Shown in pieces: positions 9,830-61,699 of a DNA stretch of 64,000 nt. Origin of the DNA: a bacterium (GTDB lineage: Bacteria; Bdellovibrionota_C; UBA2361; SZUA-149; JAEUWB01); assembly GCA_016786595.1 (NCBI GenBank), contig JAEUWB010000003.1:1-64000 (forward strand). The letters are read 5' to 3'. A model generated the notes under the pieces. The model saw only the letters and a program-made list of their open reading frames with translations. It was not told the origin of the DNA and made no database searches. Within the stretch, counting starts at the first letter, position 1. Every line of letters begins with the position of its first letter. The position numbers and the translations under genes are program-made.

Positions 9830-9840
9830 CGTGGCTCCTC

Positions 9841-9876
9841 GGGGCTTGGTTTTAATTCAGGTTAAATCCAAGCCCC
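9841..9876 (+). terminator. Possible terminator hairpin
   Basis: GGGGCTTGG (9841-9849) pairs with CCAAGCCCC (9868-9876) just after the membrane protein stop. There is no T run, so it may need Rho or serve only as a stability element. Confidence 0.5.
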
Positions 9877-9974
9877 AACACTTCTCTCGCTAAAATACGG
9901 ACTTTCCAGCATAAATTGACGGCACCGCGCCCTGATGTGTAATATGCACAAGCGAAAGAACGGTTAAAGCCTTA

Positions 9975-15071: not shown

Positions 15072-15200
15072 GATTAAAGAACCAATCAGTAATTTATGCC
15101 CATATTCAGTTGAGAAATGATCGGAAAATTAGAATATAATCGATGCCCGACGAATAATCAAATCGTTAATTAGTGACAATCAGCTTTTCTGCTAATTCAG

Positions 15201-15235
15201 GGGTCTGTCGCGAAACTTAGTTTCGCGACAGACCC
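15201..15235. repeat. 35-base perfect palindrome
   Basis: Arms of 17 bases (15201-15217 and 15219-15235) are exact inverted copies around a single T; the outer part reads GGGTCTGTCGCGAAACT. It lies 55 bases downstream of the Ppx/GppA stop on the minus strand. It could terminate that gene, but no T run follows on that strand. Confidence 0.8.
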
Positions 15236-15289
15236 TTAGGTGAGACGCTAGTGCCGCATAGCAGAGTGTGCAGTGATCTAACGATATTC

Positions 15290-22781: not shown

Positions 22782-24128
22782 ATGTTTTCCTGTTTTATGT
22801 CGATAAGAACCCAGCTCTATTTACTGACAGCACTCGCGCTCATGCCCGGCATGTTATGTGCGCAGTCTAGTCCTGACCCAGGCACAACTGCTAACGCGCA
22901 AGATTCTGTTTCTCGCGCACAAGGAGGTTCGATTGGTGGAGCTATCGCCGGAGCACAGGTTGGAGCGGCACGTGATGGTAAAAAGCATCCTTGGTATGAT
23001 GGAAATCCAAATGCAGCGGAAGAATTCACAGCTTATGATACAGCGCAAATTGCCAATCATTTTTTGGGCTGCTTTGATATTAAAATTTTAGATATCTGTG
23101 GTTTTTCAGGTGATGGGGTGCCTTGTCTCAATGTCGAATACTATTGGCCAGAAACTGTAATTGAAACCAATAATTTCATGATTGGTTCGACAATCTATCC
23201 AGGGGAAGCAACTGCACTACGTGAATCCTTTATTGCGAATAAAGAAGCAGTGCTCAGTTCTTATCGTCAGTTCATGTCTCAAGCTGAGATACCGGGCGAG
23301 CTTAAACGCACTCCGCATGCAGGCAATACGACAACAGAAAACTTAGAAGGCGAAACTGAGAATACCTATGAGGCTCACATTTATCGCACTTTTTTTGATT
23401 ATCAAGTGACAAGTTCTCTAGCTGGAACTGGTTTCTTTCTAGGCGCGCCAGCCTGTAGTTTGCCGCCACCGGAGAGGTTAATTCGCGATTTCACGGAAGC
23501 GCATCCGGATTATTGGCGGATTCCTGAAATGTGGCCGAATCGAGTTCATGGAGGCGATGGAGCCTATTCGGGATATTACGGGCCAATTGTTTCCCTCGCC
23601 TATAAGAACTCGATTTGTGCAAAATATCGTGCCGGGCTAGGCAGCCAAATTTCAAGCATGATCAAGATTGATCCAGATTATAATCCCGAACTGGCTAAGC
23701 TTTGTATGGTGCAGTCAGAAAATCTTGCTGATTTGGGACAACTTTTCCCGACAGTTTGGACCACTGAGCTGCAAGAACCGATCGCGCAAATCGTGATGTC
23801 GGTCAGAGCCAATTCCATTTTTGACTGGGAAGGGTTAGAGGGGCCAAACCGATCGAACTACTTTAATCCGGTTGGAGGTTCGAATTTATATCGCGACCAA
23901 AATAATGTCACGCACGTTGGGGATCGCCCTGCCGATAAAATACAACGGATCTATCCTGAACCAAGTGGTTGTTTTAGAATGAGTGACATTAGTGAACGCG
24001 ACCAGGGGCTTTTTCCTAAGGGAATGTTGATGGAACCGTATGGTAATCATAAAATTGTGCACTGGAATCGTCGACGTACTTGTTTATGCGTTTCACCTTC
24101 GATTCATTGTCGCTCGGTTGAGGAATAA
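22782..24128 (+). CDS. Exported Cys-rich protein, TraU/TIGR03756-like
   Basis: A 448-residue exported protein with a Sec signal (LLTALALMPGMLCA). It is rich in cysteines, including the cluster CFDIKILDICGF...PCLNVEYYWPE near residues 93-125, and ends with RRRTCLCVSP. The pattern of an early Cys pair followed by 'C-x-V-x-Y...P' and a late Cys-rich tail resembles the TraU-like proteins of conjugative elements (TIGR03756-type), where they help build the mating channel in the periplasm. This is a judgement from recalled motifs, not a database search. The next gene starts 23 bases later and is also conjugation-like, but no other transfer gene lies nearby. An alternative start is ATG 22797. Confidence 0.5.
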   Translation: MFSCFMSIRTQLYLLTALALMPGMLCAQSSPDPGTTANAQDSVSRAQGGSIGGAIAGAQVGAARDGKKHPWYDGNPNAAEEFTAYDTAQIANHFLGCFDIKILDICGFSGDGVPCLNVEYYWPETVIETNNFMIGSTIYPGEATALRESFIANKEAVLSSYRQFMSQAEIPGELKRTPHAGNTTTENLEGETENTYEAHIYRTFFDYQVTSSLAGTGFFLGAPACSLPPPERLIRDFTEAHPDYWRIPEMWPNRVHGGDGAYSGYYGPIVSLAYKNSICAKYRAGLGSQISSMIKIDPDYNPELAKLCMVQSENLADLGQLFPTVWTTELQEPIAQIVMSVRANSIFDWEGLEGPNRSNYFNPVGGSNLYRDQNNVTHVGDRPADKIQRIYPEPSGCFRMSDISERDQGLFPKGMLMEPYGNHKIVHWNRRRTCLCVSPSIHCRSVEE

Positions 24129-24151: not shown

Positions 24152-25474
24152 ATGCGGCAAAAGTTATATTTCACTTTACTTATGCTGGTTGCAACAAATG
24201 CAACTGCCCAAGGTCGCGCACCTGACCCCGGGTTTTTTGATAAGGATTTTGTTAAAGAAGGGTTTCATGGTGTCGATCAAGAAAGTAATGGGGAACCGCA
24301 AGCTGTCAACGACCAAGATCTGTTAAAAACTGAGGAGCAAGATACAAAGTCAAAAGTTACTAATCCAGGAAATTCCGTGCGCTCAGATACAGCGCCCTCA
24401 GCGGGTTATTATCGTGACTTAATGAAGCAGGTCGAGCAAGAGCGTGGCGTAGCAATCCGCGGGAAATTGCAAAAGCCTCCAGTTACTGCGCCTGCAGTCG
24501 AAGAACAGTCTGAGACAGCGACTGATAATTCACTCTTTGGCGATGATTCGGCTAAAAAAAAAGTCGATTCGACGGATGGGATTAAACAGCAAGGGCGGCC
24601 CAATTTAATCGATACATTAAATTTGATTGTTTCTGCTACCGAGATCAATCATGCCCGTAGTCACATTGAGTCTGTAATTAAATTACATCAATCACAGTCG
24701 GTAAAAATCGGCGAGATTTCGCTGATTGGCGTTAATTCGAATGAGATTTTTTCTAAACCAGAATTAATTAGCTTGGCAGCTCAAGTGTCTCAAGTCGGAG
24801 CAACGCTTAAACCGCTTCCAGGTTTACTTAAAGATTATGCTGTAACTGATTCTCCGGTTTGGGTGGTTGAGCATGCTGGTAAGCGGCACATTTTTGAAGG
24901 TGGTTATGAGCCGCATCGTTTATTTGCCCGTGACGGCAGTTTTGACCCAAGTTATGGAGGCATTGGAACTTCTGATTCTAATGTTGTGCGCTATGAGAGA
25001 ATTCCCAGTCGTATTAAATTCTCTACCAAGCAAGATGAGTTTGCTTTAAATAAAGTGCTGGGAATTACTGCAGCACAAAGTCAAAAATTTGCCGAAAAAT
25101 ACCAAGAAAAAATCCTACCCAAGCAAACTGCGACAAAACTTGTTTTACCTAAGCTTCCGATTTGTGCCAGTGACGATCGGCGTGAGCTTGTGGGCACCGA
25201 GACTGGCGGCCCCGATGTAAGTTCGGAAATTACCTATTATGCGGCGGATGATTTTGAGCAACGTGAAAATGCTAAGGCTTTAGGTTTTTCTGCAGTTGCT
25301 TTTCCTGGAGGTAAAGCTGTGGGGATTGGTTCTGAATATTATGATTCGCGCCTGACTCAAGCACTGCACGTAGGCCTTAAATGTCTGCCGACAAGATTAA
25401 AAATGGCCAAGAAAGACGGCACGCTGCATTATGAGTTCTTGGAAGGTCGTTTTGCTTTTGAAGGCAGCAAGTAA
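24152..25474 (+). CDS. Exported protein, TrbC/TIGR03765-like
   Basis: A 440-residue exported protein with a short signal (YFTLLMLVATNATAQG). A long charged, low-complexity region (about residues 25-155) precedes a domain (from about 155) with a thioredoxin-like look, including SPVWVVEHAGKRHIFEG. That phrase resembles the F-type pilus-assembly protein TrbC and the related ICE family TIGR03765. Several cysteines lie in the C-terminal part. With the preceding TraU-like gene it forms an apparent two-gene unit. Its last 46 bases overlap the 3' end of the convergent binding-protein gene. The assignment is tentative. Confidence 0.45.
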   Translation: MRQKLYFTLLMLVATNATAQGRAPDPGFFDKDFVKEGFHGVDQESNGEPQAVNDQDLLKTEEQDTKSKVTNPGNSVRSDTAPSAGYYRDLMKQVEQERGVAIRGKLQKPPVTAPAVEEQSETATDNSLFGDDSAKKKVDSTDGIKQQGRPNLIDTLNLIVSATEINHARSHIESVIKLHQSQSVKIGEISLIGVNSNEIFSKPELISLAAQVSQVGATLKPLPGLLKDYAVTDSPVWVVEHAGKRHIFEGGYEPHRLFARDGSFDPSYGGIGTSDSNVVRYERIPSRIKFSTKQDEFALNKVLGITAAQSQKFAEKYQEKILPKQTATKLVLPKLPICASDDRRELVGTETGGPDVSSEITYYAADDFEQRENAKALGFSAVAFPGGKAVGIGSEYYDSRLTQALHVGLKCLPTRLKMAKKDGTLHYEFLEGRFAFEGSK

Positions 25475-26435: not shown

Positions 26436-26711
26436 ATGGCAATACAAATCCCGCTTAGTAATCCACCGATCTTAACCCGTGAAGATTCCCGTCCAAATCC
26501 GAAGCGCATGCTTTCTTATCAACTTGAGCGCGCGATGGCGCACAAAAAAATTTCACGTGTTGAAATGGCAGAGAAATTAGGTACCAGCCGCGCGGCACTA
26601 AACCGCCTGCTTGATCCCCAAAATGAATCTGTAACTCTAAAAACAATACTGCGAACAGTTGAGGTTTTAGGTTACTCACTAATTCTTGAAGTTAAGGAGA
26701 ATGACAAATGA
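26436..26711 (+). CDS. XRE-family HTH regulator
   Basis: A 91-residue protein with a helix-turn-helix of the XRE/antitoxin type: RVEMAEKLGTSRAALNRLLDP, followed by a helix (TLKTILRTVEVLGY) that usually dimerises. The ATG at 26436 sits 24 bases after the -10 box; an upstream TTG would lie at the transcription start and is unlikely. Its stop overlaps the start of the exported binding protein (ATGA), so the regulator is the first gene of the importer operon and probably autoregulates it. No toxin gene is adjacent. Confidence 0.85.
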   Translation: MAIQIPLSNPPILTREDSRPNPKRMLSYQLERAMAHKKISRVEMAEKLGTSRAALNRLLDPQNESVTLKTILRTVEVLGYSLILEVKENDK

Positions 26712-27691
26712 CTAAAGCTTGTTTATGTTTAGTTTATTGTTTGTATTTGTTGAATGTGCTGCTCAATCCTGGATCAACTTACAGTCAGGAATTAAAAGCA
26801 GTAAAAGTCGCGCAATTCGGTAAAGAAAAATTTTTACTTTATTTGCCGCTCTATTACGCAATCGAAGAGGGATATTTTAAACAAGCCGGATTAGCACCTG
26901 AAATAATCTTTGCTGGAAATGACGATCAAGTATTTGCAACAGTAGCTAGCGGAAGTGCTGATTTTGGAGTTGGTGACCCAATCTTTGCTGCGATTGCTGA
27001 ACACAAAGGGTTATCGGCGAAAGTCGTAGCTCTCTTAGTACAACGTCTATCAAATACAGGCTTAGCAGCCCGCGCTGACTTAAAACCGCTAACTAAAATC
27101 GAGGATTTTAAAGATCTAAGAATCGGTACATTTCCTCAACCTTCCACGACATTCTCACTCTTAACTGAATTGCTGTTGCAACATCGAAATCAAGTCGGCA
27201 AGGCAAGCTTAATTGAAGCACAAATTGGTTCAATGACAGCTTTGCTTAGTTCCGGAACTGCGGATATTGTCTTTGATCTAGAACCAGCAGCTTCGATTGC
27301 TGAAGCCAAAGGTTTTAGAGTGGTAACTGATTTAGCACGCTTTACTCCACCCCAAGCAATCACCGGCATTACTGTGCGCGGAGAGTTTTTGCAGAATAAT
27401 ATGGAAGTTGCGAATAAATTTGTTGGTGCATTAGATCGTGCGTTAAGTGAAATTTCAAATGACTCTGAGCAAGCTTTAAAAGTTGCAATAAAACTTTTCC
27501 CCGATCTTAAACCGGCTGTTCTAAAAACAGCTCTAGTACGCATGCATGAGCAAGAGGTTTTTCCTCAGACTGCTAAAGTTAAAAGAAATCTATGGAATCG
27601 ATCAATTGAATTGCGAATCAACAGTGGAGCTCTCGCACCAACAGTTTCCAAGAATTTAGGATTAGACTTACGTTTTGTTGAAGAAAAATAA
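26708..27691 (+). CDS. ABC importer substrate-binding protein
   Basis: A 327-residue binding protein of the NMT1/SsuA/TauA group. The N-terminus is a signal peptide (LVYCLYLLNVLLNPGSTYSQ). The mature part starts KVAQFGKEKFLLYLPLYYAIEEG and contains GNDDQVF and FGVGDPIF, which are also present in the minus-strand homologue. The ligand cannot be named; relatives bind sulfonates, nitrate or the thiamine precursor HMP. AAGGAG lies eight bases before the ATG. The ATPase gene starts two bases after its stop. Confidence 0.88.
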   Translation: MTKACLCLVYCLYLLNVLLNPGSTYSQELKAVKVAQFGKEKFLLYLPLYYAIEEGYFKQAGLAPEIIFAGNDDQVFATVASGSADFGVGDPIFAAIAEHKGLSAKVVALLVQRLSNTGLAARADLKPLTKIEDFKDLRIGTFPQPSTTFSLLTELLLQHRNQVGKASLIEAQIGSMTALLSSGTADIVFDLEPAASIAEAKGFRVVTDLARFTPPQAITGITVRGEFLQNNMEVANKFVGALDRALSEISNDSEQALKVAIKLFPDLKPAVLKTALVRMHEQEVFPQTAKVKRNLWNRSIELRINSGALAPTVSKNLGLDLRFVEEK

Positions 27692-29184: not shown

Positions 29185-30063
29185 CTACCATTCCAGCAAA
29201 TGACGAAACCTCAAGATCTCTTCCAGTAAAGCTTGATTCCTACAAACCATAAATGGTTCTGGCTTGAGTGGGTCGTAACGTTTGCCATCAAGATTCACAA
29301 CTAAACCTCCAGCTGCTTCAATTAAGCATTGCACGGGAAAGACATCCCAGGGCGCTTGCTTAATTCGATCGCTGACGTTGTCATGCAGAATTACATCTAG
29401 TCCAGACGTAAACATCCGCATCGCAAGTCCTGAGTGAGGAACCTCATTCGTGATCAAGCGCGTTACTCCAGGTTCGCCTAACTCACCCTCGTAAACACTA
29501 AAGCCCCAAGATCTATGACGAGCTACGGGGTAAGCGTTTGTAGCAACCCAAGCTTGATTCAGAATCCTTGCGCCGAATGATTGGAGATTAACTTGTCGGA
29601 CTGTTTCATCTGCATCAGAGCAACGATAAACGCCAGCTGCTAATGTCCCAATGAACCATTCGCCACTGAGTGGGAAGTGAATCACGGCAGCAACTGCCAC
29701 TTTTTCTTGAACGTAAGCCAACATCACTGACGGATAGTGCGAACCTGCTCTAAGAATGAAAGCAGTAGTCGCATCAAGTGGATCCACGCTCCAGAATTCT
29801 GAACCAAGATCTCCACTCCAATCAGGGCTTAGCTCCTCGGATAAAACATGGATTTTGACGCCTCCGTCACGGAGCACGCGAATAATCTCCGCATTCGCTG
29901 AAATGTCAATCTCAGTTACTAGGTCGGCGGGGGACCCCTTGGCGCGCACGTTGTTAATGGCTTGTGCGCCATGACGAATAATGGCACCCGCTTGAGCGGC
30001 AGCTTGCACTGCAAGCTGCATCAAGGGGCCGAGTTCTTCTGCTATTGTAAGTAAATACTTCAT
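29185..30063 (-). CDS. Inositol monophosphatase family phosphatase, CysQ-like
   Basis: A 292-residue metal-dependent phosphatase. Visible motifs are SEE (residues 75-77), WSVDPLDATTAF (91-102), a variant of DPxDGT with Ala in place of Gly, and the late APWDVFPVQCLIEAAGG that carries the third metal ligand. The likely substrate is 3'(2'),5'-bisphosphate nucleotide (PAP) or an inositol phosphate. The ATG at 30063 is preferred to a TTG 15 bases upstream. It converges on the importer operon. Confidence 0.87.
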   Translation of the reverse strand: MKYLLTIAEELGPLMQLAVQAAAQAGAIIRHGAQAINNVRAKGSPADLVTEIDISANAEIIRVLRDGGVKIHVLSEELSPDWSGDLGSEFWSVDPLDATTAFILRAGSHYPSVMLAYVQEKVAVAAVIHFPLSGEWFIGTLAAGVYRCSDADETVRQVNLQSFGARILNQAWVATNAYPVARHRSWGFSVYEGELGEPGVTRLITNEVPHSGLAMRMFTSGLDVILHDNVSDRIKQAPWDVFPVQCLIEAAGGLVVNLDGKRYDPLKPEPFMVCRNQALLEEILRFRHLLEW

Positions 30064-51339: not shown

Positions 51340-51653
51340 CTCGAAATATTATATAAACGCCGCCTATTTGTTCACTTATTATTGCTAGCCTGCGCGCATT
51401 AAACGAGTGGTCCAGACCGAGCAGCTAGGCAAAACCTTCAGTAAGTGAGTTCACATCATATTTTTGGGTAGTTTTTTTGTTTCCGCCTCAATTGATTTTC
51501 TTGGAAATCACTTGAGGTGCGAATACGATTTTAGGTTTTGTTCCTTAGGCAGTTAGTTCGCTCGGAACTTTTTAGCATTGATCTCAGCTCCTAAGAGTTT
51601 TGGAGTCAGAGTCAAGAAGTTTCGAGCGCAATCTGCGCAAAGGACGTAAAACT
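51340..51653. other. Spacer with an imperfect hairpin
   Basis: These 314 bases hold no supported gene. CCTCAATTGATTT (51486-51498) pairs with AAATCACTTGAGG (51505-51517) with one mismatch, preceded by a seven-T run. The ribosome site of the peptidase gene (AAGGA) is at 51639-51643. Confidence 0.5.
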
Positions 51654-53042
51654 ATGAATAGAATAATTGAAACACTTGCAGAAAAACTCTTTCAGCAACA
51701 AGGGCTTGAGAGGCTACGTGCGATCCTCAGAATTTCGTCAATTAGCCCAGATTTGAAGTTTCAGGAACGGTTGCTTAATGCCCATGCTGACTTAGTCGAA
51801 TACTGCACGAAACTCGGGCTAAAAGTGCAAAGTTTTGATATGCAAAACAGTCAAGGCGAAGGTTCCTTCCCATTGATCGTTGCCTCCGATCGAAGCGCTG
51901 GCACGAACGCCAAAACTGTAGTGATCTATGGACACTATGATGTTCAGCCAACTGGCGATCCAAGTACCTGGCAGTCTCCTCCCTTCGAACCTGAAGTCCG
52001 GGTGGAAGATGGCATCGAATACATTTTCGGCCGCGGCACTACGGACAACAAGGGGCAATTCTGGTCACATCTTGAGGCGCTTCGGGCGTTTCGTGAATCT
52101 GGCGATCCACTTCCTGTTAACTTGGTTTTCATTCTTGAAGGCCAAGAAGAAATCGGAAGCCCAGGACTAATCGCCTGGCTTGAAGATCAAGCTAACCGTG
52201 ATCTTGTCCACGGTGACGTGGTTGTCATTTCCGATACGTCAATGGCAGGGGTCGATCTGCCGGCGATTGATGTCGGACTTCGAGGACATGTTGCGGTGAA
52301 GGTAACGGTGCACGGTCCGGAGAACGGCGTTCATAGCGGTTCGTTTGGCGGCGCTGTAACGGATCCGGCTGTGTGGCTGGGAAGCCAAATCGGATTATTT
52401 GCGGATTCCGATTGCTTTGTTCGACTGGTTCAGGAGCAAGTTCCTGACTGGCTACTTAACTTAGCCAAGACGTGTGGCTTAGATGAAGCAGCGCTTTGCC
52501 TCAGGGCAAAAGTTTCAGCGTTGGATAAGCGTGGAGAGACTCTTAAAAATGCACTTTGGCTAAAGCCCAGCTTTTCGGTTACCGGGCTTCACAGCGGTCA
52601 TGACCAAACGGCATCATTGAATGCGATTCCCCCTTGGGCATTTGCTCGACTCTCTGTCCGGCTTGGTTGGGGGATGGATCCGCAGGAGACCTTAAAGTTC
52701 ATCGTAGAGAAATTAAGGGATGAATGCCCTCCAAGTCTTAAACTCGAAATTGAGGAGGAGAGGTGTTTTCCGGCGTTCTACATGAATCCAACTGATCCTG
52801 CGTTCCAGCTGATGAATCAGGCCATGCAGGCTACATTTGGAAATCCGGTTGAGTTCAAACTAAACGGCGCAAGTATCCCGGCGGCAGAGCTTTTCAGCCG
52901 ACATCTGGGAGTGCCTGTGATTCTTGCCGGTCTTGGCTATCCTGGCGGAAGGTTGCATGAGCCAAATGAACGGCATCCACTCAGCCAAATCTGGAAAGGT
53001 GCCGAGATGGCTGTCCGCTTCTGGTTTGCGCTAGCTGCTTAA
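51654..53042 (+). CDS. M20-family metallopeptidase (dipeptidase-like)
   Basis: A 462-residue di-zinc peptidase of the M20/M25/M40 class. Metal and catalytic residues sit in VVIYGHYDVQP, FGRGTTDNKGQ, LEGQEEIGSPG and the late RLHEPNE; the lid domain segment VHSGSFGGAV is also typical. It probably cleaves dipeptides or removes acyl groups from small peptides in the cytoplasm; no signal peptide is present. The ATG at 51654 has AAGGA at a ten-base distance; an in-frame start 54 bases upstream is less likely. Codons are G/C-richer than in ndvB upstream. Confidence 0.9.
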   Translation: MNRIIETLAEKLFQQQGLERLRAILRISSISPDLKFQERLLNAHADLVEYCTKLGLKVQSFDMQNSQGEGSFPLIVASDRSAGTNAKTVVIYGHYDVQPTGDPSTWQSPPFEPEVRVEDGIEYIFGRGTTDNKGQFWSHLEALRAFRESGDPLPVNLVFILEGQEEIGSPGLIAWLEDQANRDLVHGDVVVISDTSMAGVDLPAIDVGLRGHVAVKVTVHGPENGVHSGSFGGAVTDPAVWLGSQIGLFADSDCFVRLVQEQVPDWLLNLAKTCGLDEAALCLRAKVSALDKRGETLKNALWLKPSFSVTGLHSGHDQTASLNAIPPWAFARLSVRLGWGMDPQETLKFIVEKLRDECPPSLKLEIEEERCFPAFYMNPTDPAFQLMNQAMQATFGNPVEFKLNGASIPAAELFSRHLGVPVILAGLGYPGGRLHEPNERHPLSQIWKGAEMAVRFWFALAA

Positions 53043-53175
53043 GCTCGGTAGTTCAAGAGCGACGCGTGGTTGTAAAAAAGGTTCTGTCCGAGAGTTTTTT
53101 GCCAAATATATTTTGTGCAAGAACTTTTGGTTAGCTCGTATTTGCAACCTCGCTTTTTATATTAAATTTTTAACA

Positions 53176-53196
53176 TTAGTTTTTAGTTAGCGATCT
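53176..53196 (+). repeat. Leader repeat, copy A
   Basis: A 21-base element, TTAGTTTTT-A-GTTAGCG-A-TCT, matching 53631-53651 at 19 of 21 positions. It sits about 80 bases upstream of the first of two paralogous genes. A weaker related stretch (TTTTGGTTAGC) occurs near 53127. Confidence 0.7.
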
Positions 53197-53257
53197 GGCA
53201 GCTGGTTTTGACTATGTGGTATCAAACGATTGCTTCTAGGAAGGGAATTTTATCTTG

Positions 53258-53608
53258 ATGGATCAAACACTACTGCAACAAGCACTACTACATCTGCAAA
53301 GTGCGGTAAATTCACTGGGCGAGGTTTTAGAGTTAAGTGCCAGTGTAGCAGCACAGTCCGGGCAATTCTGTCCAATCGGTCAAATCCGCATCGAAGCAGT
53401 TCGTATTCGCTCTACTCTAGCGCGACTTGAACGCCCGTTAAGTAGTTATCATCTCTGGGTGCAGCTTGATGCGATTGCCACGGAGTTATTACTCCACATT
53501 GAAAACTCTACAGAACCTCAACGGCAGCTTTTAATCAATGCGCATCGTGCGGTGGTTGCAGCCAATGGCAAGTTACTGGCTAATCAAGAATATTCACAAA
53601 CCATTTAA
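53258..53608 (+). CDS. Small helical protein, paralogue A of an unrecognised family
   Basis: A 116-residue protein that is mostly helical and has no signal peptide or membrane segment. I do not recognise the family. It aligns over most of its length with the next gene: both start MD-(Q/K)-(T/S)-L and share W-x2-LDAIA-x-E near residue 70 (here WVQLDAIATELLLHI). A helical bundle is likely. The ATG at 53258 has AGGAAGGG about 12 bases upstream. Its leader carries the repeat also found upstream of the second copy. Confidence 0.65.
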   Translation: MDQTLLQQALLHLQSAVNSLGEVLELSASVAAQSGQFCPIGQIRIEAVRIRSTLARLERPLSSYHLWVQLDAIATELLLHIENSTEPQRQLLINAHRAVVAANGKLLANQEYSQTI

Positions 53609-53630
53609 TTTATTCTCTTTAATTCCAAAG

Positions 53631-53651
53631 TTAGTTTTTGGTTAGCGCTCT
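53631..53651 (+). repeat. Leader repeat, copy B
   Basis: Second copy of the 21-base leader element (TTAGTTTTT-G-GTTAGCG-C-TCT). It lies about 200 bases upstream of paralogue B and 22 bases after the stop of paralogue A. Its end forms a GCTCT-ATCT-AGAGC hairpin. Confidence 0.7.
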
Positions 53652-53790
53652 ATCTAGAGCAGTGCAGTTCCATTATACTGTGCACGAAATTTATTTGGGT
53701 AGAATTGTTATTGTTTCTCACTACGTGTTTTTAGTTTGAACACGAGTGAGAAGGGTAGTTCAAGGTTTTTTTGACCTTCTATTTCTTATT

Positions 53791-53834
53791 CCCGTGGGAA
53801 TTCTCAAGTTATTTAATTTGAGAATTCCCACGGG
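53791..53834 (+). promoter_or_regulatory. Perfect hairpin directly before the RBS of paralogue B
   Basis: CCCGTGGGAATTCTCAA (53791-53807) pairs with TTGAGAATTCCCACGGG (53818-53834), a 17-bp stem with a 10-base loop. The ribosome site (GAAGAAGGAAG) follows immediately and the ATG is at 53852. The stem could control translation or act as an attenuator. An additional hairpin lies at 53717-53750. Confidence 0.65.
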
Positions 53835-53851
53835 GAAGAAGGAAGATCATT

Positions 53852-54196
53852 ATGGATAAGTCACTTATCAAGCAAACAGGGATGTGTCTTGGCAAAGCTT
53901 TGAATCATCTCGCTGACATCATCAGCTTTACCTCAAGTATCGGGGAAAAAAAACCGTCTGCCATTCTGAGGTTCCAGACTGCCTTGCAAGAAGTTCAACA
54001 TGAACTGCAAGGCAGGGACTCGCTCGACGAAGCTGCAGCGAAAGAATACTGGGAGAAGCTTGACGCGATCGCAAGAGAAATGATGCGCCAAATCATCGCT
54101 CTCGGTCAGGGCCGGAATTCGAACTTGCATCGGTCATACGATCAAGTTCAGCAAGCAATGGCTAAACTTTCGTGCTTAAGTTTGACCGCTAGATAA
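53852..54196 (+). CDS. Small helical protein, paralogue B of an unrecognised family
   Basis: A 114-residue helical protein homologous to the gene at 53258. Shared features are the start MDKSLIKQ, a helix LNHLADIISFTSS matching VNSLGEVLELSAS, and WEKLDAIAREMMRQI matching WVQLDAIATELLLHI. It differs in a more charged middle (QHELQGRDSLDEAAAKEYW). No function is known to me. A strong ribosome site and a 17-bp hairpin precede it and a rho-independent terminator follows. Confidence 0.7.
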   Translation: MDKSLIKQTGMCLGKALNHLADIISFTSSIGEKKPSAILRFQTALQEVQHELQGRDSLDEAAAKEYWEKLDAIAREMMRQIIALGQGRNSNLHRSYDQVQQAMAKLSCLSLTAR

Positions 54197-54201
54197 ATTC
54201 C

Positions 54202-54244
54202 TCGGGTGTTGGCGGTAGAGATGCCTCCAACACCCGAATTTTTT
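54202..54244 (+). terminator. Rho-independent terminator after paralogue B
   Basis: TCGGGTGTTGG (54202-54212) pairs with CCAACACCCGA (54227-54237) and is followed by ATTTTTT. Confidence 0.92.
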
Positions 54245-54339
54245 CTCATTCGCATTGAAGGATAAATAAAACTACCCTCTTACTTTAAGATCTTCAGGAA
54301 GCGATCCGCCAAATTGCATCTAAGCGACATGCGGGTTCT

Positions 54340-54415
54340 GTCGTTGCGAGGAACAAAGTCAGCTATTTGACTCGCTCACAGCAAGCTCGCAATGACACGA
54401 GATGCAAAGAGATTG
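54340..54415. repeat. REP-like interspersed palindrome
   Basis: GTCGTTGCGAG (54340-54350) pairs with CTCGCAATGAC (54386-54396), and AGAGATTGCCAC follows (54408-54419). The words TTGCGAGGA, CGCAATGAC and GAGATTGCCAC are common to repeat families found in several bacterial genomes. No second copy is in this window. Confidence 0.55.
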
Positions 54416-54562
54416 CCACAAATACTGTCGATTATTGGAGAGTTTTAGTTGTCTCAGCGAAGATAGAAAATGGGCAGCTGGTAATCTTATTAACCTTCTT
54501 GGAGTGTAAATCCAATTAGTAAAACCCCAGCCGCCAAAATGCACCAAGAAAAGATACGGCAA

Positions 54563-56512
54563 TCATTGTTGACCCCACCCATTCTTGATGTGTTTCACTG
54601 GTTTCCAGAGAACTAGTCCAAGTTTCCAGAGTAACTCCCAAGCTTCGGTCCACCCGCGTTTAGGTTTGTCTTTGCCTAAGATCAGTCGCTCCGTATTCTT
54701 AAACACGGCAGCATGAAGCCAATTGCGGCCATTTTGCAACCTGTTCGCTTCGAACTCCCTAAGCTTGTCGTAGAAGCGGTTTTTGCCCCAATAGCCCCAG
54801 CGCCGAATTGGTCTGTTCACCCGGATAAAGACCGCCCGATTGATGCTCTCAATCGTGTCCTCTTGTCCACTCGGACAGAGAAGTAGCACGATCAAGTTCA
54901 TAAATGGGCCATACTTGCCAGGCCCCCAACGCAAGCCCTCGGCAACTGGAAAGAGCACTAAGATGGGCTTTTCCAGCCCAGGCACAATCGCAACGGGCAT
55001 GGCGACATTCTCTTCGGTTGCAGAGGGGGTATCTTCCTCGGATTTCTCAATTGCCACCAAAAAGTCTTCCTTTGAGAACTTAACTCCCTTAGGAAGAACG
55101 TTCTCGCTGACAATCTTCCACATTTGCTCCAAGCCGCTCTTCCACGAAGAAGTTTGCGGCAGGAAAAATGCTTGATAGTGGACAGGTCCACGGTCGAGGT
55201 CGGCTGGTTCGATGTCGAGAGTCTGCTCGAGCACAGTTCCGGAGATCATCGAAGTTACGAGCACCGAAATCACGACGGCAACAAAGACCTCTTGAGAGAA
55301 GATCCCAATGCCGAGAGCAATCTCAGCTACAAGTAAGCGCGTTACGCCACCTGGTAGGAAGCCTGCCGTAAAGTTCTGTTGCTCACGCTTAGTTGCCTTA
55401 ACAACCCAAGCACTGAGCCAAGTGCCTGCACCCTTGGAAGCAACTGACAACGTCACGAGGAACAGGCAGAGCGAGAAGTTGAAGTGGTTCAAGAAGTCAG
55501 TGCGGATACCTAAGGTCATGAAAAAGACGCTCAGCCCCACATGCTTCCACCAACGAAACATCCCGTTCTTTGTAGACTCAGTCAGATTCTTTGATTTGGA
55601 GAAGAGAAATCCCGCGACAAAGAAACCGAAAAGAATACTTAGACCGATGGCATAAGCGACCCAAGCCCAGAGAAAGGCTCCGCTAAGTGTGACGATCAAC
55701 CGCACATTCCTGCGGCGTAAGTGATTGCGCGAAATCTCATAGATATCGTCAATCGCATAGCCAAAAAGGTGCGAGAGACCAAGCAAGCACAGCGTAAGCA
55801 CGATCAATGCCCAGAATGGTTTCTGAGTAGTCGTAGAAAACGCGCCGAAGAAGACCGACAGCGCAATCCAACTCACGATCTCATTTAGCCCGTAGGCAAG
55901 CAGCAGGTTGCTCCCAAACCGACTCTTGAAGATTCCAAGATCGATGAGGATTCTACTCATCACGACCATAGCACTGATCGCCATGGTAATTGAGATAAAG
56001 ACAGACAACCCGATCCCGGACTTCGTCTCAACTGGGTTGAGTGCAAAGTATACCCAGGAAAGTCCAAAGGCGATTGCTCCGGTGAAGACCGCCCCGAGAA
56101 CTCCGGTTGCCAAAGGAATTTTGAACTTGTGCCGGTCTTCCCAGCTTGGGATGCGGAGCTCAAGCCCAGCTTCGAATAGCAAGAAGCAGATCGCGATCTT
56201 GCCAATCGAACTTAAGACCAAAGCGTTTCCCTCGGGAAATAACCGGGCGTATTCGTCGGGCCTTAAATTGCCAAGCACAGTTTTGCCGATCAAAATGCTT
56301 GCAACTAATTCACCGACAAGCGGAGGCAATTTCCGACGAGTTGCTAATTCTCCGAAAATTGTAGCAAGTCCGACGATAATCGCGAGCTGCAAGAAGAAAT
56401 GAGCAAGTTGGTCTTCCGACCACTTGCTCAGTGACGAGCCGCTGTCAGCGGCGAAAACTGTGGTGACGAGGCCCAAGAGCATCATCACCACGAAAGGTAG
56501 TTTTGGTTTCAT
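54563..56512 (-). CDS. CPA2-type cation/proton antiporter with degenerate EIIA-like tail
   Basis: A 649-residue inner-membrane antiporter. After a signal-like N-terminus (VVMMLLGLVTTVFA) come about 12-13 helices up to residue 425, with the CPA2 pattern ATIFGELATRRKLPPLVGELVASILIG split around residue 55-75 and FLLFEAGLELR at 110-120. The C-terminal part, about 455-580, looks like a PTS EIIA type-2 domain (NVAMPVAIVPGLEKP), but the phosphorylated His is Val507. That tail may be a regulatory nucleotide- or partner-binding relic. It exchanges K+ or Na+ for H+. Codon use is G/C-richer than in the genes around it. Confidence 0.87.
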   Translation of the reverse strand: MKPKLPFVVMMLLGLVTTVFAADSGSSLSKWSEDQLAHFFLQLAIIVGLATIFGELATRRKLPPLVGELVASILIGKTVLGNLRPDEYARLFPEGNALVLSSIGKIAICFLLFEAGLELRIPSWEDRHKFKIPLATGVLGAVFTGAIAFGLSWVYFALNPVETKSGIGLSVFISITMAISAMVVMSRILIDLGIFKSRFGSNLLLAYGLNEIVSWIALSVFFGAFSTTTQKPFWALIVLTLCLLGLSHLFGYAIDDIYEISRNHLRRRNVRLIVTLSGAFLWAWVAYAIGLSILFGFFVAGFLFSKSKNLTESTKNGMFRWWKHVGLSVFFMTLGIRTDFLNHFNFSLCLFLVTLSVASKGAGTWLSAWVVKATKREQQNFTAGFLPGGVTRLLVAEIALGIGIFSQEVFVAVVISVLVTSMISGTVLEQTLDIEPADLDRGPVHYQAFFLPQTSSWKSGLEQMWKIVSENVLPKGVKFSKEDFLVAIEKSEEDTPSATEENVAMPVAIVPGLEKPILVLFPVAEGLRWGPGKYGPFMNLIVLLLCPSGQEDTIESINRAVFIRVNRPIRRWGYWGKNRFYDKLREFEANRLQNGRNWLHAAVFKNTERLILGKDKPKRGWTEAWELLWKLGLVLWKPVKHIKNGWGQQ

Positions 56513-59062: not shown

Positions 59063-59090
59063 GACAAGTTGCAGTAGTTTGAAAAAACAT

Positions 59091-59132
59091 TTCGTGATAC
59101 GCTTTTTGGTTGAACCTTAAAGCGCATCACGA
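59091..59132. terminator. Terminator between nhaA and the GNAT gene
   Basis: TTCGTGATACGCTT (59091-59104) pairs with AAGCGCATCACGAA (about 59119-59132) with one mismatch. On the minus strand it is followed by TGTTTTTTC, so it is a good terminator for the GNAT gene; it also ends nhaA. Confidence 0.8.
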
Positions 59133-59153
59133 AAACTTAGATGCTCACTCTGC

Positions 59154-61484: not shown

Positions 61485-61616
61485 GCAGAGGCAGGATACC
61501 ACCGATGCCATCCTGTCTGCTAAGTTCTTGCTAATCCGATAGTCTAGACTTCAGCTACTTGAACGACCGATGTAAAATTAATTGATTAGCAATGAGGCTG
61601 ACACAATGCACATAGA

Positions 61617-61656
61617 GCGCGATATTTCTGGTATGAATTATTCAGAAATATCGCGC
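61617..61656. terminator. Perfect hairpin between convergent genes
   Basis: GCGCGATATTTCTG (61617-61630) pairs with CAGAAATATCGCGC (61643-61656) with a 12-base loop. It lies 44 bases after the kdpE stop and between convergent genes, where a terminator is expected, but lacks a long T run on either strand. Confidence 0.6.
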
Positions 61657-61699
61657 CTTCTGTAAGTGACAGATCGAACCGAAAAAAGACAGTTATTAA

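Follow-up and report, generated by a model that had tools for sequence, protein, structure and literature searches.

How have two small, adjacent genes come to share a peptide core and an upstream repeat, and what might their products do? This question is raised by genes A and B of the 64,000-nucleotide window, the whole stretch of DNA that was analysed. Gene A (53258–53608; ATG at 53258, stop at 53606–53608) encodes 116 residues, or 117 from an alternative TTG start at 53255, and gene B (53852–54196; ATG at 53852, stop at 54194–54196) encodes 114 residues. Both are on the plus strand, with 243 bases from the stop of A to the start of B, and lie between genes with Pfam matches to an M20 peptidase (51648–53042) and to a Na/H exchanger (54563–56512), the latter oriented opposite to A and B. 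A sequence-only reading had described a small protein system of two unrecognised helical proteins; its coordinates and sizes for both were right, while 'system' is too strong a word for two genes. The M20 peptidase had no match at E 1e-60 among the 44 other genomes of the class, and thus this neighbour offers no synteny for comparison. Elsewhere in the window, two adjacent long frames (22782–24128 and 24152–25474) have, by eye, signal-peptide-like starts and gave no Pfam match at E 0.001; they presumably recall conjugation-pilus assembly proteins.

A and B read as real genes. Their in-frame coding log-odds per codon (0.174 for A, 0.111 for B) exceed the 5th percentile (0.098, mean 0.164) of 129 true-frame chunks from 33 window genes, which is an in-sample reference, and the 95th percentile (0.033, mean -0.047) of 258 wrong-frame control chunks.

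Paralogy, relatives and predicted structures

The tandem duplication proposed in the sequence-only reading is well borne out. BLASTP of A against B, as a single comparison, gave E 2e-7 with 23 of 91 positions identical, and a local alignment spans residues 1 to 106 of both proteins, collinear from their very start, with a score of 73. That score is well above the maximum of 54 reached both by shuffling (n=5000) and in a natural control of 314 comparisons with other window proteins (38 proteins cut into 157 chunks), and reversed B against A scored 25. A circular-shift control of B was uninformative, because small shifts keep the alignment and its maximum equals the observed score. A and B are therefore very probably paralogues, a judgement held short of certainty because a natural score of 54 arises by chance, in this case between A and the helical N-terminal part of the frame at 29185.

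The WxxLDAIAxE core, which had been noticed as common to both proteins, indeed begins at residue 67 in each, and the best local alignment at the DNA level covers 24 bases around it (20/24 identical). Taken by itself, the core does not define a family. Its DNA pattern hit at least 119 stretches in a genome contig collection, the peptide itself occurred in 21 frames of fewer than 260 residues among the first 80 of the listed loci, and an A/B-profile scan of the 119 listed stretches gave a best E of 0.022, with none past the inclusion threshold.

Relatives were sought at several levels. Protein searches with A and with B in 57 genomes, including the genome's own, matched the own genome alone, and a profile search of 45 genomes of the class, own included (all the genomes of the phylum that were searched), gave no convincing relative. 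One match in that search (class genome G017, E 0.027) came down to a short run, LDAIATE, in a frame with no other likeness to A and B, and was dismissed as chance. Besides the own genome, the class genomes comprised 14 from its order and 30 from elsewhere in the class, with none other from the same family; the absence consequently means that the pair is either not common across the class or fast-evolving, and it says nothing below the family level. Profile searches in two other phyla (291 and 40 genomes) found none, a result which shows nothing since it lacked a positive control. Further, 47 pattern matches in the genome contig collection and 32, 6 and 4 in viral contigs included no relative, tblastn of plasmids and phages returned nothing beyond a single Klebsiella phage present as two records (E 0.4, for B), and the locus DNA had no match among plasmids.

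The description of the proteins as unrecognised similarly stood up to profile searches. At curated cut-offs, Pfam gave none for A and, for B, a best score of 17.4 bits where 26.9 was required, and NCBIfam gave none for either. The best PHROGs matches (E 0.13 for A, 0.3 for B) were not significant; PADLOC returned none for A and a non-significant E of 0.031 for B, and a sequence search of the PDB reached E 0.078 at best. A known family of known function that would take in both proteins was looked for and no family was found, and a literature search found nothing on the pair.

Structure prediction, which had been proposed as a check, gave four-helix bundles for both proteins with pLDDT about 80, each model resting on two sequences. 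Helices span residues 3–34, 40–57, 63–82 and 88–115 in A (pLDDT 80.6, pTM 0.78), and 3–28, 36–53, 60–84 and 90–113 in B (pLDDT 80.2, pTM 0.71). The predicted fold is too common to give a function. Foldseek reached E 0.001 neither in the PDB for A or B nor among viral models for B; the fold matches were spread over unrelated helical bundles (in the viral library, for B), and in a second structure comparison the top ten for A were a mixture of helical bundles whose Z values differed by no more than 1. A putative binding or adaptor role is a tentative suggestion from these models. The net charges are -2.1 for A and +1.8 for B, and opposite charges would suit mutual binding, which is weak evidence for it.

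The shared element and the leader of gene B

The 21-base repeat reported before each gene was confirmed at 53176–53196 (A) and 53631–53651 (B), on the plus strand, with 19/21 positions identical. Shuffled leader pairs agreed at 18 positions at best (0/500 reached 19), and 153 pairs drawn from 18 other intergenic stretches at 17 (0/153 reached 19). The AT-rich alignment around the element extends to 43 nt, as was seen in 6/2000 shuffles. In the whole genome of 2,575,016 bases, exact copies of the 14-base core occur at the two leaders only. With one mismatch allowed, the core has three matches genome-wide, including one at 27087 within the frame 26708–27691, against six for a reversed control, so it is unenriched in the genome and its clustering at A and B is the unusual part. 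The 11-base core TTTTRGTTAGC has seven exact copies genome-wide (control 12), four of them inside long open frames, including the one at 27088 in the frame 26708–27691, and three intergenic, the latter all in the A and B leaders and in one orientation. A possible third copy of this core (53125–53135, plus strand) is weaker than the pair and not far beyond chance: a three-copy 11-mer with one mismatch in both leaders was reached by 24/300 shuffles, and a three-copy 14-mer with two mismatches by 4/300.

Because the element has kept 90% identity while the proteins stand at about 25%, we infer that it is functional, most simply as a candidate regulator site, although it could be leftover homology of the duplication. 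A consensus promoter scan of 52900–54500 found 0 where 1.9 were expected, which leaves the promoters of A and B unplaced. By eye, and with no control, weak -10-like hexamers were noted 28 nt (TATCAA at 53220) and 27 nt (TATACT at 53674) past the element core.

The two leaders have diverged in structure, as had been suggested. Folding of the A leader is unremarkable (z +0.9), whereas the region 53600–53870 before B folds at -93.7 kcal/mol against a shuffle mean of -55.2 (z -9; 0/200 shuffles as stable). This stability is carried by two plus-strand hairpins, one at 53715–53752 (-19.1 kcal/mol) and a longer one at 53789–53836, with main arms at 53791–53811 and 53814–53834. The latter ends 15 nt before the start codon of B, next to the likely ribosome-binding site AAGAAGGAAG (53837–53846). 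It had been described as a 17-bp hairpin, which holds for its unbroken Watson-Crick part; one G-U and two more pairs bring the full RNA stem to 20 pairs (-32.7 kcal/mol), and the DNA arms are 95% complementary around a 2-base centre. The start region of B is the most stable among 38 window genes with both 80 and 200 nt of context, and its accessibility ranks second lowest of the 38 with 80 nt upstream and eighth with 200 nt. After B, a plus-strand stem (54202–54237) followed by ATTTTTT looks like a terminator; it is absent from the list of a mechanical terminator scan, which has none on the plus strand.

Searched as a genomic repeat, the long hairpin matched only its own locus and, with a 22-base piece, one place elsewhere (E 0.58). 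No Rfam family reached its gathering score in the window. Sub-threshold matches, mostly to microRNA families (E down to 3.6e-05 in a 271-base search), had at most 30.7 bits where the gathering scores lie between 60 and 200; they are what a long hairpin yields and were rejected. The window holds seven long hairpins, all intergenic by the gene list, and under looser criteria 13 inverted pairs, three of them inside genes. The hairpin of the B leader is the only one of the seven directly before a start codon. The other six are beside gene ends, among them those at 2589–2628, 9839–9878, 15199–15237, 59090–59134 and 61614–61659, and three of the six (9839, 15199 and 61614) lack a T-run on the side where they would terminate a gene.

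A toggling hairpin, raised in the sequence-only reading, found no support. The stem is very stable, and in the model it is a pyrimidine-rich linker (53753–53788) that pairs with the ribosome site of B, at a level of 0.76. This level was reached by 280/500 linker shuffles, 70/200 whole-leader shuffles and 30/200 scrambled hairpins; scrambling the hairpin lowered the pairing to a mean of 0.65, and a linker consisting only of adenines to 0.11. Since 280 of 500 shuffled linkers pair equally well, composition is shown and no dedicated switch. A role of the hairpin as a thermometer was likewise rejected, as ribosome-site pairing varies little from 20 to 50 °C. In a published study, two leader hairpins in tandem raised translation as much as one small G-quadruplex did, and a single hairpin failed to raise it (PMC11087576). 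The B leader has two hairpins, and by analogy an enhancer role for them is possible.

Candidate readings of the locus

The reading that we favour, with about even confidence, is that A and B are a lineage-restricted pair of duplicates governed by the same regulator, in which B has an extra structured leader. An old tandem duplication would have carried the upstream control region along and given rise to A and B. The 21-base element would be the binding site of one regulator driving both genes, and on the strength of the shared element the two may be co-induced from two promoters. The long leader of B, with its two strong hairpins, could then set the output of B separately, by transcript protection or ribosome steering and not by switching. 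More tentatively still, the products may be cytosolic, non-enzymatic four-helix-bundle proteins that bind a partner or each other. A bolder version is improbable, namely that A and B form a new family and an obligate hetero-oligomer with one dedicated regulator, the A:B ratio being set by the B leader through the 20-pair hairpin between the pyrimidine tract and the ribosome site.

The two genes might instead belong to one operon, in which the hairpins between them would act as processing or attenuation sites setting the dose of B, and the second copy of the element would be a duplication fossil. The shared strand, the 243 bases between the genes, the long hairpin beside the ribosome site of B and the presence of a terminator-like stem with a T-run after B, with none seen after A, are consistent with this possible but less probable account; a spacer of that length is nevertheless long for an operon, and the second element has been kept at 19/21 despite wide divergence of the genes. 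Rather unlikely is that the long hairpin acts on transcription and not on translation of B, as a DNA palindrome bound by a protein or as a terminator without a T-run. Its 95% complementary arms with their 2-base centre would suit this reading, and so would the position of the other six long hairpins at gene ends, half of them without a T-run on the relevant side. However, the hairpin ends so close before the start of B that full termination would silence the gene, and no T-run follows it.

The proteins themselves invite two further readings. A and B could be diverged, RNA-binding members of the S23 / Avd superfamily (PF05635), whose length (100–120 residues) and four-helix-bundle shape resemble those of the predicted A and B models, mainly that of B. 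Weak fold matches point in this direction: five chains of 2gsc, deposited as a hypothetical protein and which we take to be an S23 member, ranked first by Foldseek with B, followed by 2rld chains at ranks 7, 8 and 13; 2rld came at ranks 22 and 36 with A; and the second comparison placed the Avd chains 8ub8, 8ub7 and 4dwl at Z 9.3–9.8 for B. Yet the Foldseek E is only 0.12, hhalign of the two-sequence A/B profile against PF05635 gave a probability of 0.3%, the family is absent from the Pfam scan list, and direct alignments with S23-family proteins scored 22–33, the level of unrelated proteins. Moreover, the residues RA..S...NIAE, invariant in eight members from the class, are missing from A and B, and we consider membership very unlikely. 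Hardly credible at all is that one or both of A and B are no gene and their likeness is due to chance. The lack of found relatives and the score of 54 for an unrelated helical stretch would allow it, but both have an in-frame coding signal, the score of 73 is collinear from the first residue, and the two are of the same length, adjacent and preceded by a shared element.

A and B offer a neat, compact example of an orphan gene that was duplicated and has preserved its control element better than its protein, in a bacterium that is the only representative of its taxonomic family in the genome set covered. Should the element be a shared regulator site, the locus would show how lineage-specific genes gain and split regulation after duplication; if it is not, A and B are one more unannotated pair.

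Comparison with known systems

Matches to the S23 family (PF05635) are numerous in other genomes of the class (G016, G041, G044, G009 and G012), with 40 in G041 and 19 in G016. In G016, 18 of the 19 matches, some of which fall below the curated cut-off, form nine close divergent pairs, minus then plus and a few hundred bases apart (for example, C2:122174–122377 minus and 122544–122711 plus), an arrangement suggestive of divergent gene pairs or of frames carried by an inverted-repeat element. For the Avd proteins of diversity-generating retroelements, an adjacent reverse transcriptase was looked for beside A and B and is absent; the one RVT_1 match in the genome at E ≤0.01 is on contig C45 (33456–34103, a 437-residue open frame) and not on C3.

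Two metal-binding families have bundles of comparable shape. Csp copper storage proteins are four-helix bundles of similar size with many cysteines lining the bundle, whereas A has one cysteine and B two. The iron-binding protein 6n63 was the best match of B in the second comparison (Z 12.6, rmsd 2.8, 114 aligned, 4% identity), where, as the tool itself notes, helical bundles commonly give Z values below about 13; for A, it was second by Foldseek (E 0.065) and not among the best 50 rows of the second comparison. Ferritin-like iron binding relies on conserved Glu/His metal ligands; the columns common to A and B, as judged from two sequences, include D2, D71 and E76 and no His. The closest likeness is with lineage-specific (ORFan) tandem duplicates, an ordinary kind of bacterial gene, which like A and B are small, without found relatives, side by side and with diverged leaders. 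What sets A and B apart from these is just the preserved 21-base element together with the strong hairpins in the leader of B.
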